Assembly: GCA_018061945.1 (NCBI GenBank)
Contig: JAGOTD010000003.1
Coordinates: 174,028-238,027 of the forward strand
Direction: 5' to 3'
Source of the DNA: Candidatus Peribacteraceae bacterium
GTDB lineage: Bacteria > Patescibacteriota > Gracilibacteria > Peribacterales > Peribacteraceae
Length of the DNA stretch: 64,000 nt
The position numbers and the translations under genes were made by a program. The notes under the pieces were generated by a model that saw only the letters and a program-made list of their open reading frames with translations, made no database searches and was not told the DNA's origin. Of this stretch, positions 19,383 through 39,014 are shown piece by piece; the first letter of the stretch is position 1; each line of letters opens with the position of its first letter.

Positions 19383-20093
19383 ATGAACTCCCGCCAAGCC
19401 AAGCTTTTGCAGGCTATTATCGATCAGTTTATCCAAACAGCTCTGCCTGTTGGGTCAAAAAAATTGCTTGAATCTGCCGAATTCTCGGTGTCGTCGGCGA
19501 CTATTCGTAACGAGATGATGTTTTTAGAAGAGGAAGGATTTTTAGAGCAACCGCATATTTCGGCAGGTCGTATTCCAACTATCAAAGGCTACCGAACCTA
19601 TGTACAGGACTTTATGCAGCCGACTGATTACCAGAAAGCGGTGCGCAGTAAGTTTGATACCCTCAAAGAACAGTATTTTCAGGAGAAAGATCGTGAGCGT
19701 GTCTACGAATCTGTCGCGTTGCTTTCCCACATGATTCAAAACGTGAGCTTTGCGACAGTTCCGCACAGGTCCGAAATCTACTATTTAGGTCTAGCCCATG
19801 CTATGCGCCAGCCAGAGTTTTTGGCAGATCCACGGTTTGTCAGTGGCGTTGTAGAAGTGCTGGAGGAAAAGCTGAGTGCACTGCTCTCCAAAGTCGAAAT
19901 CGATGGCAAGATTCGGTATTACATCGGACAGAAAGATTTGTGTAGTGAGTTTACCAGTTGCAGCCTGATGGTCACCGAGTACCGTGTCCGCGATCAGCGT
20001 GGCGTTATCGGCATTCTGGGTCCTGTGCGTATGGATTATGGCTACAACACGGTCGCTTTGGATATGGTGGCGGATATGGTGAGGCACGGGTAG
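19383..20093 (+). CDS. hrcA: heat-inducible transcription repressor HrcA (short form)
   Basis: The 236-aa protein begins with the HrcA winged helix: MNSRQAKLLQAIIDQFIQTA, VGSKKLLES, SSATIRNEMMFLEEEGFLEQPHISAGR. The IRNEM and SAGR(I/V)PT motifs are diagnostic. A GAF-like and dimerisation part follows, ending in GVIGILGPVRMDYGYNTVALDMV. At 236 aa it is about 100 residues shorter than textbook HrcA; the insert domain appears reduced. HrcA represses chaperone and protease genes by binding CIRCE. One CIRCE copy is found in this window, in front of clpC (62159-62185). Confidence 0.92.
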   Translation: MNSRQAKLLQAIIDQFIQTALPVGSKKLLESAEFSVSSATIRNEMMFLEEEGFLEQPHISAGRIPTIKGYRTYVQDFMQPTDYQKAVRSKFDTLKEQYFQEKDRERVYESVALLSHMIQNVSFATVPHRSEIYYLGLAHAMRQPEFLADPRFVSGVVEVLEEKLSALLSKVEIDGKIRYYIGQKDLCSEFTSCSLMVTEYRVRDQRGVIGILGPVRMDYGYNTVALDMVADMVRHG

Positions 20094-31412: not shown

Positions 31413-33242
31413 TTAATTGTTGATAATTGGCGGGCCAGCTGCTGTTTTCTTGAATGAAACAGCAGGTAAGCCGAGTCCGCCATACATCAGCCCTGCCTTT
31501 TCCATTGTTTTCGCACACGAGCGCAGCACAGTAAGCTCCGCAATAAACTTTTTGTTCCACTCTGATGGTTTTGGATTTCCATCATTATTTGCACAAATAT
31601 TCAGCCAATACAGCCGCTTTGGTGGCTGCTCAGTTTCCATAAATTCTGCCAGTTTTTGTGTTGCTGCTCCATCTTTGATATCCAGATGCAGGTTCGTCGG
31701 CTTATTTTTGGCATGCTCCTCCTTTCGTACATAGGCAGCGTGCGCTGTCGTACCGTCCAGGTTATCTTCGCGCCCAATATCCAGGCCTCGGTCACCACGC
31801 CATTTTGTTTGCATTCTATTTTTTTTACTTGCTCCTTTACGCAGTTTGTCGTTGTCCAAATATCCGCGATTTTCACACCACGTACGGTTATAGATTCCCC
31901 AGCGTAGCTGATGGATATTGCGATTCGCATGCGACGATCGAAGCAGGCGCTCAACCATCGGACGCATACTAGTATCCATGTTGCGTACTGTGTTATTCAT
32001 TGTTTGCACTGCGATATTTGCTTCTTCCATGGGACTTTTCTTTTCTTTTGTTCCAGCTGCTCCCTTTTTGTCCTTCCGCATTCTCTTCAAATAATTTTTC
32101 ATGGAGTCAATGTTGGATTTCTCGCTGTCGCTCATGGTTTCTCGCGTTGCTTCGGCTTGTTTAATTTTTTCTGATGCAGCTTTCCAGTCTTTCATATCCA
32201 GCAAATGACGGATGGTGAGGAACAGGGGATTCTCCTTGCGGATATCATTGGCTCCCACCAATCGCAGATCCATTTCTTTTACATATGCCAAGCGCTCCTT
32301 ATAGGTCATTTTGGTGAAAGCTGCGCGAGGAATGAGGTTCATGCCTCGTACACGCACTTTGCCGCGCTTTTGGATCTTGCTCGCAATTGCATCGTATTTA
32401 CTGAGAACCTGGTAACGCTGACGAATGTCGTTGTGAATGCCGCTATTTAAATACTCTTCTATTTCTTTGCGAGATTTTACGCCATCGAAAATACGTTTTA
32501 AGAGTGATCCGACACGATCTGCGCTGATCGCTCCATCTTTTACAGGACCAGCAAGAATCTGCTTCGCGCGCTTGTGTAAGTCCTCGTTGCCAGTTTCTTT
32601 CGAATGTAATGCGGCTTTTGCGCGATCAACCAAGTTTTTTCTTTTATCGTAATGCATGTTCAAAAACTCCTCTTTATTCTGCATTTTTTGTAGTTCAGGA
32701 TCCATTTTTAGAAGATTATTAAAACGTGGATCTTTCATGATCTTTTCACGTTCTTCGACTACTTTAATCCATCGGTCAACAAATTTACTCATTTCTCCTG
32801 AAATCCATTTAGATTTTGTTTCAAAGGAGGATTCGGAGCTATTTTTTGCTGAAGTATCATAGAAACGGTCCATCCATCTCTTTTTTGAATCTTCAGACAT
32901 GTATGGTGCTGCTCTGCGCATTTCGGACGTAAATTTTTCATACAAAATCTCACCTTTTTCTACAACTTCTAATCCACTTTTTTTGATAAAATCTTCACGC
33001 CAATAAATACTCTTTTGGTTTTCTGTATCATCGGTAGCTTCAAAATCCGTAAGCCATTTCAGTGTGGTAATTGTAGTAGATTTACTTCCAAAGCCTGTAG
33101 TGTTCATCACGTTTCGGTATCTTTCTTTGAATCCTAAAATATCTTTCACTCTTTGCGTCATACGAGCTTCTTCGGCTGGATTTTTTGTATCAGCTGAATC
33201 GATTGATTGTCGTGCCCGGTCAGGTGTTTCGGTGAACGCCAT
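31413..33242 (-). CDS. 609-aa cytosolic protein of unknown function
   Basis: I do not recognise this large protein. It starts MAFTETPDRARQSIDSADTK, has no signal peptide or membrane helix, and is rich in Lys, Arg, Glu and Asp. Long helical stretches run through about residues 40-420 (KTKSKWISGEMSKFVDRWIK-type segments). A more globular, Trp-rich C-terminal part follows (HQLRWGIYNRTWCENRGYLD, KRLYWLNICANNDGNPKP). It is nearly 2 kb long with an intact frame, so it is surely expressed. TATACT ends 10 nt before the ATG. Family, partner and function are unknown. Confidence 0.8.
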   Translation of the reverse strand: MAFTETPDRARQSIDSADTKNPAEEARMTQRVKDILGFKERYRNVMNTTGFGSKSTTITTLKWLTDFEATDDTENQKSIYWREDFIKKSGLEVVEKGEILYEKFTSEMRRAAPYMSEDSKKRWMDRFYDTSAKNSSESSFETKSKWISGEMSKFVDRWIKVVEEREKIMKDPRFNNLLKMDPELQKMQNKEEFLNMHYDKRKNLVDRAKAALHSKETGNEDLHKRAKQILAGPVKDGAISADRVGSLLKRIFDGVKSRKEIEEYLNSGIHNDIRQRYQVLSKYDAIASKIQKRGKVRVRGMNLIPRAAFTKMTYKERLAYVKEMDLRLVGANDIRKENPLFLTIRHLLDMKDWKAASEKIKQAEATRETMSDSEKSNIDSMKNYLKRMRKDKKGAAGTKEKKSPMEEANIAVQTMNNTVRNMDTSMRPMVERLLRSSHANRNIHQLRWGIYNRTWCENRGYLDNDKLRKGASKKNRMQTKWRGDRGLDIGREDNLDGTTAHAAYVRKEEHAKNKPTNLHLDIKDGAATQKLAEFMETEQPPKRLYWLNICANNDGNPKPSEWNKKFIAELTVLRSCAKTMEKAGLMYGGLGLPAVSFKKTAAGPPIINN

Positions 33243-33328
33243 AAGGAAAAGGAGTATACAGCGAATTGAAAATTGGTGCGATGAAAAGGGTTGCAATTTT
33301 TTCCATCTGGCGTGACTATGTTTTGTGT

Positions 33329-34034: not shown

Positions 34035-34907
34035 ATGAAAGCCCATCATTCTACCGGTCTCGATCTCGCAAAAATGCTCAAAGGCGGCGTTATTATGGAT
34101 GTGGTGGATGCCGAGCAAGCCAAGATTGCGGAAGATGCCGGTGCTTGCGCCGTTATGGCTCTCGAACGTGTTCCGTCGGATATCCGTGCGCAGGGAGGAG
34201 TGGCTCGTATGAGCGATCCAGAACTGATTATTGGTATTCAAAAAGCTGTCTCTATTCCAGTGATGGCCAAAGTGCGCATCGGACACACGATGGAAGCGCG
34301 TATTTTAGAAGCGCTGAAAGTCGACTTCATCGATGAAAGCGAAGTGTTAACACCTGCCGATCCGTTTGATCATGTAAATAAGCGCGAATTTAAAGTGCCG
34401 TTTGTGTGTGGCGCGACAAATTTGGGCGAAGCATTGCGGCGTATCAATGAAGGAGCAGTGATGATCCGCACGAAAGGGGAGGCGGGAACCGGAAACGTGA
34501 TCGAAGCGGTTCGTCATTTAAAGATCATCAAGCAAGGGATGGCAGATCTTATCGATATGGACGAAGCGACGCTTGAGATGTTTGCCGATATGGAACGTGT
34601 ACCGATTGCATTGTACAAACAAGTGCGCAAAGCTCAGCGACTGCCGGTTGTTACATTCGTTGCCGGCGGCATTGCAACACCTGCTGATGCAGCTTTGATG
34701 ATGTCGATGGGAAGCGAAGGTGTGTTCGTTGGCTCAGGTATTTTTAAGGCCAAAGATCCCAAGAAAATGGCTAAGGCGATTGTTGAGGCAACGGTGCATT
34801 TTAAAGACGCTGCGTATATCGCCAAAATTTCGACCGGTCTTGGCGACGCCATGGCAGGCCTCGAGATTGGGACACTCCCGACCAAGATGCAGGAGCGGGG
34901 ATGGTGA
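34035..34907 (+). CDS. pdxS: pyridoxal 5'-phosphate synthase lyase subunit PdxS
   Basis: The 290-aa (beta/alpha)8 enzyme builds PLP from ribose 5-phosphate, glyceraldehyde 3-phosphate and ammonia. Conserved segments are [40 protein letters not shown], the first active-site Lys in [44 protein letters not shown], and [16 protein letters not shown]. It works as a dodecamer fed with ammonia by PdxT, whose gene follows. Each gene in the cluster appears to have its own promoter. Confidence 0.97.
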
Positions 34908-34985: not shown

Positions 34986-34991
34986 TATACT
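34986..34991 (+). promoter_or_regulatory. -10 box of pdxT (leaderless spacing)
   Basis: TATACT ends 6 nt before ATG 34998. Confidence 0.6.
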
Positions 34992-34997
34992 GAGCGC

Positions 34998-35585
34998 ATG
35001 ATTATCGGAGTACTCGCATTTCAGGGTGATTTCGCGGAGCATATCGACGTGTTGAAGTTGCTCAAGATTGATTGTATGGAAGTACGCAACGTTCAAGATC
35101 TTGGGCTCGTTCAAGGACTTATCATTCCCGGTGGCGAAAGTACGGTGATGGCGAAGTTTTTGGCGTCGACAGGAGTTGGTAAGGAAATTAAACGTCGTGT
35201 GCGGAGCAAAAATCATCCCCTCGTTGTGTATGGAACATGTGCGGGTGCTATACTGCTAGCCAAAATTGCAACTGGAAAAAATGCACCGGAAACACTCGGG
35301 CTTTTGGATATTACCATTGAACGCAATGCGTACGGCGCGCAAATCGATAGCTTCGAAACCACATTACTCATCCAAGGAATCAAATTACCCATCACCGTTT
35401 CGTTCATTCGCGCACCGAAAATTGTGCGGGTGGGAAAGGGGATCGAGATTCTGGCAATGCACGAAAAATCGCCAGTGCTCGTGCGAAAAGGGAATGTCAT
35501 GGCCGGAACATTTCACCCCGAAGTCCGGTCCCAGACAGCTCTTCATGAGTTGTTTGTTGGCATACTGAAATCTTCGCTGGCATGA
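34998..35585 (+). CDS. pdxT: PLP synthase glutaminase subunit PdxT
   Basis: The 195-aa class I glutamine amidotransferase supplies ammonia to PdxS. The fold starts IGVLAFQGDFAEHI. The oxyanion glycine loop is PGGEST (44-49), the nucleophile is Cys81 in VVYGTCAGAI, and the His-Glu pair is H173/E175 in GTFHPEV. The catalytic triad is thus complete. ATG 34998 is supported by the family N-terminus and by a -10 box 6 nt upstream; the frame is open a little further upstream through repeat DNA. Confidence 0.96.
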   Translation: MIIGVLAFQGDFAEHIDVLKLLKIDCMEVRNVQDLGLVQGLIIPGGESTVMAKFLASTGVGKEIKRRVRSKNHPLVVYGTCAGAILLAKIATGKNAPETLGLLDITIERNAYGAQIDSFETTLLIQGIKLPITVSFIRAPKIVRVGKGIEILAMHEKSPVLVRKGNVMAGTFHPEVRSQTALHELFVGILKSSLA

Positions 35586-35650
35586 GTTGATGTTTTCCTA
35601 CGCATCATTGATCAGTATTGAAACATCTTGGGATTGACGAGCACTCGCTC

Positions 35651-35656
35651 TATACT
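35651..35656 (+). promoter_or_regulatory. promoter of the pdxT paralogue
   Basis: TATACT ends 6 nt before ATG 35663. TTGGGA (35628-35633) lies 17 nt upstream as a weak -35. Confidence 0.6.
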
Positions 35657-35662
35657 TTACCT

Positions 35663-36259
35663 ATGACTATTGGAGTTCTTGGGTTTCAAAAAGGCTTTGA
35701 GCAGCATATCAAGCTGCTTGAAGGCGAGGGCATTACATGCAAAAAAATTCTGACACTCGAAGATCTTTCGACAGTTGAAGGACTTATCATCCCGCATGGA
35801 AATGTTGTAGAGCTTGCCGCTTCTGTGCAATCGACAGGATTAGACAAAGAGATTGTTCGTCGGGTGGCGCTCAAAAAGAACCCGCTTGTTGTTCTCGCAC
35901 TTGGCAGTGGTACAGTATTGGCTGCCAAGAAAATCGTTGGACATTCTGCTCTTTCACCACTTGGTCTTATCGATATCGTTGTCGAGAACGCTGAACGATC
36001 AGTAAAAGATGAAATTGCCGATACGTCGTTGAGTGTTGACGGTATCATGACTCCGCTTCCGGTTCACGTGTATACAAGTCTTGCAATCACGAATCTAGGG
36101 ACAGATATTGAAGTAATGGCTGAGTACCAACAAAAAACAGTATGTGTGAGAAGTGATACTGTTTTTGCCAGTACGTTTGATTCTTTCGAGCGGAGCAATC
36201 TTCACATGCTTTTTGCGATGACTGTCGAGATGAATAACGGGCTTGTTGATTATCTATAG
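35663..36259 (+). CDS. PdxT paralogue without catalytic residues (pseudo-glutaminase)
   Basis: This 198-aa protein aligns with PdxT from end to end almost without gaps (IGVLGFQKGFEQHI, VEGLIIPHGN, NPLVVLALGSGTVLAAKK, ASTFDSFE). Every catalytic feature is lost. The nucleophile Cys81 is Gly, His173 is Asp, Glu175 is Phe, and the GGES oxyanion loop is HGNV. The frame is intact, has its own promoter and follows pdxT by 77 nt, so it is not simply a decaying copy. By inference it could bind PdxS or PdxT as a regulatory or structural subunit. It might also bind a different ligand. Confidence 0.85.
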   Translation: MTIGVLGFQKGFEQHIKLLEGEGITCKKILTLEDLSTVEGLIIPHGNVVELAASVQSTGLDKEIVRRVALKKNPLVVLALGSGTVLAAKKIVGHSALSPLGLIDIVVENAERSVKDEIADTSLSVDGIMTPLPVHVYTSLAITNLGTDIEVMAEYQQKTVCVRSDTVFASTFDSFERSNLHMLFAMTVEMNNGLVDYL

Positions 36260-36265
36260 CAACTG

Positions 36266-37156
36266 TTAGACAAAACTTTGCATTAACTCGCTCACATCAT
36301 GAATGTCGACTTCCTCAACTGGTGTCGTCTTCTTATCCATACGTGGCGTTAAGCGCTCATAGAAATTCGGGACATCTTCGCGACGGTAGAGAATGCCAGT
36401 CGAGATGCGCTTGGTTGTATCGACGGCAAGGGCGCGAGCTTTGGTAAAATCTGATGGATCGTGGCCTTCTTCCTCTACTTTGTAGCAACGTTCCATAAGC
36501 GTCTCGTGCGTTGCAAAGTGATTGTAGGTCGGACATTCCTGCAGCACATCGACAAAGGCGAATCCGCGGTGTGTCATGGCGGCTTTCATGATGCTGGTGA
36601 GCTGTTTAATATCGCCGGCAAATGCGCGGGCGACGAATGTGGGTTCGAGTGAGAAGACGAAATCCATCGAGTTGATGGTGTGTTCGGGAATGCCGTTTGG
36701 CGAAGCATTCATGGGCTGGCTTTGCGGCGTGAGAGAGCTGGCCTGACCGGTTGTTAGTCCGTAGTTTCCGTTATTATGCAGCACGAACACGATGGGATAG
36801 TGACTCCGCACAGCATGAACCAAATGCCCGATTCCTTCCGAGAAGCTGGCGCCATCGCCACCGAAGGCGATCACGGGCAAGCGGGGATTGGCAAGTTTGG
36901 CTCCAGCAGCAAACGGCAGAACGCGACCGTGGAGGCCGTGGAAACGATAGCCCATGAGCTTGTCCGATCCATTGCCATGACAACCGACGTCATAACACAG
37001 AAGCACCTGCCACGGATGCAGGCCCATTTCTGTGAGAGATTTCTTGATGCTCGTCCAAATACCGTAGTTACCACAACCATCGCACCATGTGCAGCGATTG
37101 GCACTGGCGTATTCTTTCATCTGAACCGGCTGTGATGCATCGAGAGGAATGGGCAT
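36266..37156 (-). CDS. 2-oxoacid:ferredoxin oxidoreductase, beta (TPP-binding) subunit
   Basis: The 296-aa protein carries the TPP domain of the KorB/PorB family. RCTWCDGCGNYGIW near residue 22 holds iron-sulfur-type cysteines. YDVGCHGNGSDKL is followed by GRVLPFAAGAKLANP, then the TPP-Mg signature GGDGASFSEGIGHLVHA...NNGNYGLTTGQASSLTP (GDG...N). With the alpha/gamma fusion upstream it would oxidise 2-oxoglutarate, pyruvate or a related 2-oxoacid to the acyl-CoA and reduce ferredoxin or flavodoxin. ATG 37156 is chosen over a longer upstream frame on family N-terminus. Confidence 0.92.
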   Translation of the reverse strand: MPIPLDASQPVQMKEYASANRCTWCDGCGNYGIWTSIKKSLTEMGLHPWQVLLCYDVGCHGNGSDKLMGYRFHGLHGRVLPFAAGAKLANPRLPVIAFGGDGASFSEGIGHLVHAVRSHYPIVFVLHNNGNYGLTTGQASSLTPQSQPMNASPNGIPEHTINSMDFVFSLEPTFVARAFAGDIKQLTSIMKAAMTHRGFAFVDVLQECPTYNHFATHETLMERCYKVEEEGHDPSDFTKARALAVDTTKRISTGILYRREDVPNFYERLTPRMDKKTTPVEEVDIHDVSELMQSFV

Positions 37157-37262
37157 AATTGAGGGAGGGGACTTGTCCTGAGCGAGCGAAGCGAGTCGAA
37201 GGATTAGTACTTTGGATTGAATAATAATGACATCACCAGAGCGGGCGTTCGCGCCCGCGGGT

Positions 37263-39014
37263 TCATGCAATTATCGATTGTAATTTCTCGATCAATTCAT
37301 CGGTAAAAAACGGACGACCGTCGTACTTCAGAATTTTATGAGTCACCTGCAAACCGGTTTCCTGACGAATGAGCATGCCGAGCTGGCCTTGATAGTTTCC
37401 TTCGATGAGCACGCTCGTCTTTGCCTGCTTCATTAGCTTTTCCAATAACTCAGTTTTGAGTGGCCACAGATACGTAAAGTGCAGGTAACCGATTTTGAGT
37501 TTGGCGAATGCCTCGTTTTCCAGTGCATCGAGTACCGGGCCTTTGGTCGAGCCCCAACCGATCAGTAGAATGTCCGGCTTTTTTGCGCCATACAGAACTG
37601 GCTCGGGTAATTCTTCCTTAAGTGCAGCCAGTTTCTTCATGCGTTTGTCCAGCTGTGCGATGGCGTTCGGTGCGCTTTCATCGATACTTCCATCGCCACT
37701 GTGTTCATCGCCCTGCGCGTTGTACGTTGCGGCAGCGGAACCTGGCAACCAACGAGGAGAGATGCCGTCTTTTGCATTCACATCAAAACGATCCGCAGAC
37801 TTGAGTGCCGCTAGTTCTTTCTCATCCGTCACTAAATGCCCGCGATTGATTTTGGCTTTCTTCTGATCAAATGGCTCTTGGGTGAAGAGTGCCTCGGCAA
37901 TCTGCTTATCGGTTAAGACAATGACGCTGATTTGAAACTGTTCGGCCAGATTGAACGCGTCATTCATCAAATCAAAAGAATCCTCCGCGTCACTCACGCC
38001 AATAATGCAACGAGCGAATTCGCCGTGTGCGGTGTGGATTGCCATCAGCAAGTCACCTTGGCCGGTCCAAGTCGGTAAACCTGTTGCGGGTCCCGGTCTC
38101 TGAGCCAAGACAAAGACAGTCGGATTTTCGATGATGGCATTGAGCGACAGTGTTTCACTCATCAGATCGAACCCCCCACCCGAAGTGGCAGTGAGTGCGC
38201 GGGTGCCCATGTGCATGGCGCCCGAGACCATTTGTGCGGCGGTAATTTCATCTTCTGCCTGCTTGATGACCATACCGGTTTTGTTCTGAATGGCGGCAAT
38301 GTACGAGAGCAGGGGAGAACTGGGCGTCATCGGGTAACCCGCATACAGACGCACGCCCGCATGTACGGCGCCAAGTCCCATCGCCTCCGAACCGGTAATC
38401 AGCAAATGATCCTGCCATTTCTTCCCAGGCTTTGGGAGCGACAATGCACAGTCCTTTGCTTCGCGCTCGCGAAACGCAAAACCTTCTTCTATACACTTCA
38501 TGTTCATCTCGAGTAAATCTTTCTTCTTGGCAAATTTCTCACCAACCATTTTTTTGAGCGGCTCCATTTCCTGGCCAAGCATCGACCACACGCAGGCAGT
38601 GAGAATCACGTTTGCGAGAATCGCTTTGGCGCTGAGGCGCGTTAAAATCTCTTCGATTGGCAAATAGATAAAATGCAGATTATTGGCTTTGATGAGTTCG
38701 TTATCGGCATCCGTAAATTTCCAGTTGGGTGTCGAATGAATAAAGACGCCGTTGGGTTTGAGCTCCGGAATATTGTGTTCAAAACCATGGTGATTAAACG
38801 AAATGACGATATTCACTTTGGTTTCGCTGCTGCGGATTTCCTCGTTACTGATATCCAGCTGATAACTGGCGTGTCCGCCTTTGATGAGCGATGGGTATTC
38901 GCGGTAGCCAAACACGCAGTAGCCGCCGCGCTTGAGCGCTTTCGCTACAATTTCCCCGACAGAGTTGATGCCTTGGCCCGAGGAGCCGACGATTTTGAGG
39001 GAAACGCGATTCAT
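37263..39014 (-). CDS. 2-oxoacid:acceptor oxidoreductase, fused gamma-alpha subunit
   Basis: The 583-aa protein joins a gamma domain (residues 1-185: LKIVGSSGQGINSVGEIVAKAL, YREYPSLIKGGHASYQLDIS) to an alpha domain (from about 205: GSEAMGLGAVHAGVRLYAGY, PMTPSSPLLSYIA, QAEDEITAAQMVSGAMHMG, TATSGGGFDLMSE). The KorA-type order and the absence of a ferredoxin domain indicate a two-subunit enzyme with separate electron carrier. ATG 39014 lies 19 nt after the flavodoxin stop, and the beta gene follows after 106 nt, so the three look like one functional unit. Substrate choice cannot be read. Confidence 0.93.
   Translation of the reverse strand: MNRVSLKIVGSSGQGINSVGEIVAKALKRGGYCVFGYREYPSLIKGGHASYQLDISNEEIRSSETKVNIVISFNHHGFEHNIPELKPNGVFIHSTPNWKFTDADNELIKANNLHFIYLPIEEILTRLSAKAILANVILTACVWSMLGQEMEPLKKMVGEKFAKKKDLLEMNMKCIEEGFAFREREAKDCALSLPKPGKKWQDHLLITGSEAMGLGAVHAGVRLYAGYPMTPSSPLLSYIAAIQNKTGMVIKQAEDEITAAQMVSGAMHMGTRALTATSGGGFDLMSETLSLNAIIENPTVFVLAQRPGPATGLPTWTGQGDLLMAIHTAHGEFARCIIGVSDAEDSFDLMNDAFNLAEQFQISVIVLTDKQIAEALFTQEPFDQKKAKINRGHLVTDEKELAALKSADRFDVNAKDGISPRWLPGSAAATYNAQGDEHSGDGSIDESAPNAIAQLDKRMKKLAALKEELPEPVLYGAKKPDILLIGWGSTKGPVLDALENEAFAKLKIGYLHFTYLWPLKTELLEKLMKQAKTSVLIEGNYQGQLGMLIRQETGLQVTHKILKYDGRPFFTDELIEKLQSIIA

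Follow-up and report, generated by a model that had tools for sequence, protein, structure and literature searches.

The window, a stretch of 64,000 nucleotides from a Candidatus Peribacteraceae genome of 1.37 Mb, contains the two genes of a PLP synthase followed by a third, related frame. The lyase subunit is encoded by a canonical pdxS (34035..34907, + strand), the only copy in the genome, which scores 461.6 bits against NF003215 (cut-off 395) and 439.9 bits against TIGR00343 (cut-off 438.45). The neighbouring pdxT (34998..35585, +) encodes the live glutaminase subunit, with the GGEST, GTCAG and FHPE motifs all present and a TIGR03800 score of 190.2 bits, over the cut-off. It is followed by an intact frame of 198 codons (35663..36259, +; P0001), encoding a dead PdxT paralogue, or pseudo-glutaminase, of 198 amino acids, and then by a convergent gene (36266..37270, -), which we take to be a korB-like gene for a 2-oxoacid oxidoreductase subunit. 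The only other sampled genome and species of the genus, G001 (uncultured Candidatus Peregrinibacteria bacterium, contig CALMES010000075.1), carries an orthologue of the paralogue at the matching place (L057 5601-6197), which makes two orthologues in all. Both genomes share the gene order dcd-pdxS-pdxT-paralogue, followed by korB and korA in convergent orientation, where dcd, korA and korB are names that we presume. The GC3 is low in the paralogue of both species (0.38 for 35663-36259 and 0.40 for L057 5601-6197), compared to 0.48-0.60 in pdxS, pdxT and korB. In addition, a 627-codon ORF (31413-33296, -) has a similar counterpart in the sister species (L057 1322-3205).

Sequence comparison revealed that the paralogue is homologous to PdxT along its full length, with an identity of 38-39% to the neighbouring PdxT, and a search of the whole genome at E values up to 1 returned two genes, the paralogue itself and pdxT. 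It matches the SNO family (PF01174) with 39.8 bits and an E value of 5.6e-10, above the Pfam gathering score of 27 bits, which together with the predicted fold assigns it to the SNO superfamily and bears out the original prediction of an intact PdxT paralogue beside pdxS-pdxT. Against the PdxT equivalog TIGR03800, by contrast, it scores 67.8 bits and its orthologue in G001 73.3 bits, both below the cut-off of 105.55, and SNO is the only family that it matches above cut-off.

The PdxT motifs GGEST, GTCAG, RNAYG, FIRAP and FHP are catalytic or glutamine-binding. Their counterparts in the paralogue read HGNVV, ALGSG, NAERS, VYTSL and FDS, respectively, so that the paralogue lacks the catalytic Cys and His and has lost the oxyanion loop as well as its contacts to glutamine. 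The same holds for the orthologue, which shows PHGN, LGSG and FD as in the window; both copies lack C81 (Gly), H173 (Asp), the Glu of the Cys-His-Glu triad, the GGES oxyanion loop (HGNV) and the glutamine-binding Arg motifs RNAYG and FIRAP. The replacements of Cys81 by Gly and of His173 by Asp had been predicted, as had an altered GGES loop, and all of them recur in our alignment, the loop with G45>H, E47>N and S48>V. It was also predicted that Glu175 is Phe; no Glu is aligned at this position, whereas the assignment of Phe depends on gap placement, as MAFFT opens a gap of two residues a short way behind Asp173 of the paralogue. Despite this gap, the alignment with PdxT is fairly described as nearly gap-free, and the C-terminus of the paralogue extends a few residues beyond that of PdxT.

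The AlphaFold2 model of the paralogue, built from 38 rows, has a pLDDT of 92.5 and a pTM of 0.90, and shows the PdxT fold as predicted. Superposition by VIA-align against the PdxT structure 2nv2_D gave a Z-score of 29.5 and 1.7 Å over 191 residues. The nearest solved folds listed by VIA-align are all PdxT, in agreement with Foldseek, and neither program lists a fold closer than PdxT. A model computed from the two paralogues without PdxT rows is too poor (pLDDT 44.8), so the good model leans on the PdxT rows. The geometry of the pocket discussed below is a putative one, drawn from equivalences with PdxT.

The paralogue is restricted to the genus. A profile of the two paralogues found matches at paralogue strength (E near 1e-115) in two of the 74 genomes of the family and two of the 353 genomes of the class, that is, in both genomes of the genus and in none of the other 351 of the class. 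In a sample of the phylum (n = 379), one match of this strength was found, in the window's own genome, G001 having evidently not been drawn. Beyond the genus, the best profile match reaches an E value of 4e-33 (L032). The family members that we inspected, L004-L056, proved to be ordinary PdxT and carry GGEST wherever the motif is readable. A search for the paralogue gave no match among the genome contigs outside the genus or among the viral contigs, and a scan of the genome contigs with PdxT returned one locus. Four genomes of sister genera (G026, G077, G078 and G086) show an empty site, with a distance of 7-17 bases from the tblastn match of pdxT to that of korB. In G005 and G085, unrelated sequence of ~460 and ~525 bases separates pdxT from korB; these gaps hold no relic of the paralogue, the profile matching no better than an E value of 0.79. 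No korB was seen within the 1.5 kb flanks of the remaining examined loci. As a separate observation in sister genera, the PdxT frames of L026 (G025) and L017 (G026) span 237-296 residues with matches in separate pieces, pointing to putative insertions inside PdxT.

Both genomes are drafts and G001 has 6% contamination, which would allow for an artefact of binning or assembly. We regard this as next to impossible, since the order dcd-pdxS-pdxT-paralogue-korB-korA is identical in two species, on contigs 272 kb and 42 kb long. A tandem duplication of pdxT in the ancestor of the genus would have given rise to the copy, which came to separate pdxT from the korB-like gene. In the best tree, the paralogue pair stands beside the genus's own PdxT with a support of only 36/32, at which an older or horizontal origin is neither shown nor rejected.

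Between the two species, the paralogue shares 47% identity (46.7%), compared to 89% for PdxT. The end branches of the paralogues are 0.97 and 1.46 long, against 0.05 and 0.09 for PdxT. By NG86, the paralogue has a dN/dS of 0.225, compared to 0.084 in pdxT, 0.053 in pdxS and 0.012 in korB; the value for the paralogue is rough because its synonymous sites are saturated. Dividing its dN of 0.47 by the dS of the neighbours (0.83-1.44) gives 0.33-0.57, a moderate constraint, and GY94 rejects omega=1 (2dlnL 69.6). Moreover, we ran 2000 neutral simulations brought to the fourfold divergence of the neighbours (0.49). The simulated pairs reached a mean identity of 24% and a maximum of 34%, and stops arose in 99.8% of the runs, leaving an open frame in 0.2%, compared to the 46.7% and the open frames of the observed pair. 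The paralogue is therefore under constraint, though it evolves far faster than PdxT.

These results bear on the idea of a duplicate that decays slowly under relaxed selection, its frame open by chance. Such a duplicate would be consistent with the fast evolution, the restriction to one genus and a GC3 under that of the neighbours in both genomes. However, the neutral simulation excludes the observed identity together with the open frame, omega=1 is rejected, and the two copies share a promoter offset and ten replacement residues. We thus consider it a poor candidate. A pseudogene in decay, the outcome that the original prediction had tied to missing orthologues and relaxed selection, is rejected by the orthologue, the simulation and the selection tests. 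The absence of selective constraint that defines a pseudogene does not apply; instead, the lost catalytic residues, the conserved orthologue and the purifying selection characterize a pseudoenzyme, whose inactivity is deduced from its residues. The view of a maintained dead glutaminase thus gained support from an orthologue with the same inactivating residues.

The paralogue appears to have a promoter of its own. A promoter-like TTGGGA-17-TATACT (35628..35656, +) ends 6 bases ahead of its ATG, and TTGTGA-17-TATACT (L057 5566-5594) occurs in G001 with the same spacing and ATG offset, where the spacer between pdxT and the paralogue is just 15 bases. The pdxT gene is likewise preceded by a TATACT box (34986..34991, +), whose 3' end lies 6 bases before the ATG in both species. 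Counts of promoter-like sites are not above those in shuffles (1 vs 2.4 and 3 vs 2.7), and it is the box offset common to both species, rather than the number of matches, that supports the separate promoter claimed earlier. A TATACT so near to the start suggests a leaderless transcript. Within the window, a TATAAT-like box lies 4-8 bases upstream of 12 of the 449 ATGs that open frames of at least 100 codons (nested ATGs included), 0 of the 213 for frames of 60-99 codons and 15 of the 1635 for those under 60 codons. The box is somewhat enriched, not universal, and leaderless starts as a general habit were rejected. Further long ORFs, with starts at 19383, 5784 and 43247, have such boxes 6-8 bases ahead of the ATG, a placement that suggests leaderless transcripts for some genes of the window.

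The column analysis drew on 36 of 43 distinct PdxT rows collected, many of them trimmed to match ends, and found 46 columns that are at least 90% conserved in PdxT. Both paralogues keep 15 of these, largely glycine, proline and hydrophobic residues, and one paralogue keeps another 4. Ten columns have changed to an identical new residue in both copies (G10K, G45H, E47N, T80L, C81G, A82S, G113S, A139S, P140L and H173D), nearly all within the old active site, and 17 have changed to differing residues. Over 16 active-site and glutamine-contact positions, a set defined after alignment, the two paralogues are identical at 11, compared to 81 of 182 elsewhere (p 0.07). At the C-terminus, 11 of the 18 residues of the stretch 181-198 are identical in the pair, and this stretch is helical in the model.

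Altogether, we propose that a tandem-duplicated PdxT became a pseudo-glutaminase with a rebuilt pocket that is retained for another job, an account which we hold to be about evenly balanced between right and wrong. After losing its glutaminase chemistry, the duplicate would have been kept as its old glutamine pocket turned into a new conserved small-molecule site, putatively formed by K10, H45, N47, L80-G81-S82-G83, S139-L140 and D173. The N-terminus of a helix carrying G-S-G beside a Lys and a His would seem apt to accommodate a ligand that is anionic or phosphorylated. Once bound, the ligand would set a regulatory state that may be relayed via the conserved C-terminal helix (residues 179-198), and the signal may pass without docking on PdxS in the manner of PdxT, to a target that would not have to be the PLP synthase. 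Against this proposal, the conservation of the pocket is only slightly above that of the remaining positions, 17 of the 46 columns have diverged between the two copies, and the comparison involves two fast-evolving orthologues with saturated synonymous sites.

The same replacements could also mean that the rebuilt pocket (K10, H45, S82 and D173) now catalyzes another reaction. The fold class of PdxT includes serine and other hydrolases, the new polar residues at the old active site are common to both copies, and Pfam Peptidase_S51 gives a sub-threshold match of 14.6 bits. However, the position of the nucleophile is Gly in both copies, no known catalytic set is recognizable, and SNO stands alone above cut-off. 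A new enzyme thus seems improbable, and we favor a rebuilt pocket that binds a ligand.

The main rival is a regulatory pseudo-subunit that would bind the PdxS dodecamer in place of PdxT, or pair with PdxT, and thereby damp, stabilize or tune PLP synthesis, by analogy a mirror of plant PDX1.2 on the glutaminase side. The gene lies directly behind pdxS-pdxT in both genomes, an adjacency that tandem duplication alone would also yield, and the predicted PdxT fold is kept. Published reports describe the regulation of a plant PLP synthase by PDX1.2, a pseudoenzyme of the other subunit (PMC6829848), and an occupancy of PdxT on PdxS that can be sub-stoichiometric, leaving room for a second partner (PMC11237949, PMC11708016). 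The separate promoter favors separate control, which we do not count against a pseudo-subunit.

The docking surface tells otherwise. In the Staphylococcus aureus complex, the PdxT residues contacting PdxS include E14, E47, R106, Y58, E112 and E125 (PMC11237949), and the β6-β7 loop is described as a PdxS contact for Plasmodium (PMC8313854). R106 corresponds to R109 by alignment with Bacillus subtilis, which we assumed for S. aureus as well; Y58 was mapped roughly, and no confident counterpart was found for E112 or E125. The mapped residues E14, E47 and R109 are lost in both paralogues, and the β6-β7 docking loop (109-119) is the least conserved stretch of the pair. Over the contact set (14, 47, 58 and 109-119), assembled after alignment, 2 of 14 positions are identical, compared to 90 of 184 elsewhere (p 0.013), so the conserved surface by which a PLP synthase subunit would contact the N-terminal helix of PdxS is not seen at the sequence level. 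If the paralogue docked on PdxS, the PdxS of the genus would be expected to differ from its relatives, and it hardly does. Genus-specific changes affect one of 163 conserved columns in PdxS and none of 47 in PdxT, each compared with 34 other rows, PdxS with two full genus rows and a third, partial row of its own excluded. The PLP synthase of the genus looks ordinary in these alignments, and a pseudo-subunit appears unlikely to us, more credible than a new enzyme all the same. A PLP synthase subunit with a structural or regulatory role, placed first in the original prediction, is hence not our first choice, and the alternative given there, a new ligand-binding protein, fits the sequences better. 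The paralogue probably performs a new, non-glutaminase job, and it probably acts as a regulator that binds a ligand, not as a canonical PLP synthase subunit.

A second dead PdxT-like protein was found in another genome of the class, G056, which encodes a lone SNO-like protein (L028 1168-1722, -; also L058) with 25% identity to the window's PdxT. It has Gly-Ser aligned at C81-A82, its oxyanion loop reads GGDN, and the His is replaced by Tyr. In this genome, which is 96% complete, no match to PdxS exceeds the cut-off (best 31.6 bits), and no SNO match was found besides the lone protein. Its gene is flanked by a long ORF with what appear by eye to be SLH-like repeats and by a presumably RseP-like protease ORF. 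The protein is likely of separate origin from the genus paralogue, and the case suggests that dead PdxT-like proteins can be kept without PdxS. On a tentative reading, the paralogue would be a stand-alone sensor, a PdxT-derived pseudo-glutaminase with a new ligand pocket that acts apart from PdxS under its own leaderless promoter, with the G056 protein as a second independent case. If true, a genus of Peregrinibacteria with small genomes would have converted an enzyme of the PLP pathway into such a sensor. The dead twin is presumably of use to a genome of 1.37 Mb that retains it next to the live gene. With the empty site, the active parent gene and the two orthologues at hand, the change from enzyme to binding or regulatory protein is directly testable.

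Loss of the catalytic Cys with retention of the class I glutaminase fold has a precedent in the dead glutaminase domain of carbamoyl-phosphate synthetase I. That domain is fused to its synthetase, whereas the paralogue is a free protein beside a live copy. Compared to PdxT/Pdx2/SNO (PF01174, TIGR03800; PDB 2nv2, 2iss, 4wxy and 8u7j), the paralogue is similar in its full-length homology, predicted fold and adjacency to pdxS-pdxT, and differs in the replaced Cys, His, oxyanion loop and glutamine-binding motifs and in the lost PdxS contacts that could be mapped. Pseudoenzymes of PLP synthase are known on the synthase side from plant PDX1.2; on the glutaminase side we found none in searches of the open-licence PMC literature. 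Like PDX1.2 (PMC6829848), the paralogue is a dead, lineage-restricted paralogue of a PLP synthase subunit that has been kept, in the plant case for a use. However, PDX1.2 is of PdxS-side origin and joins its catalytic homologue, whereas the paralogue stems from the glutaminase side and bears no sign of canonical docking.
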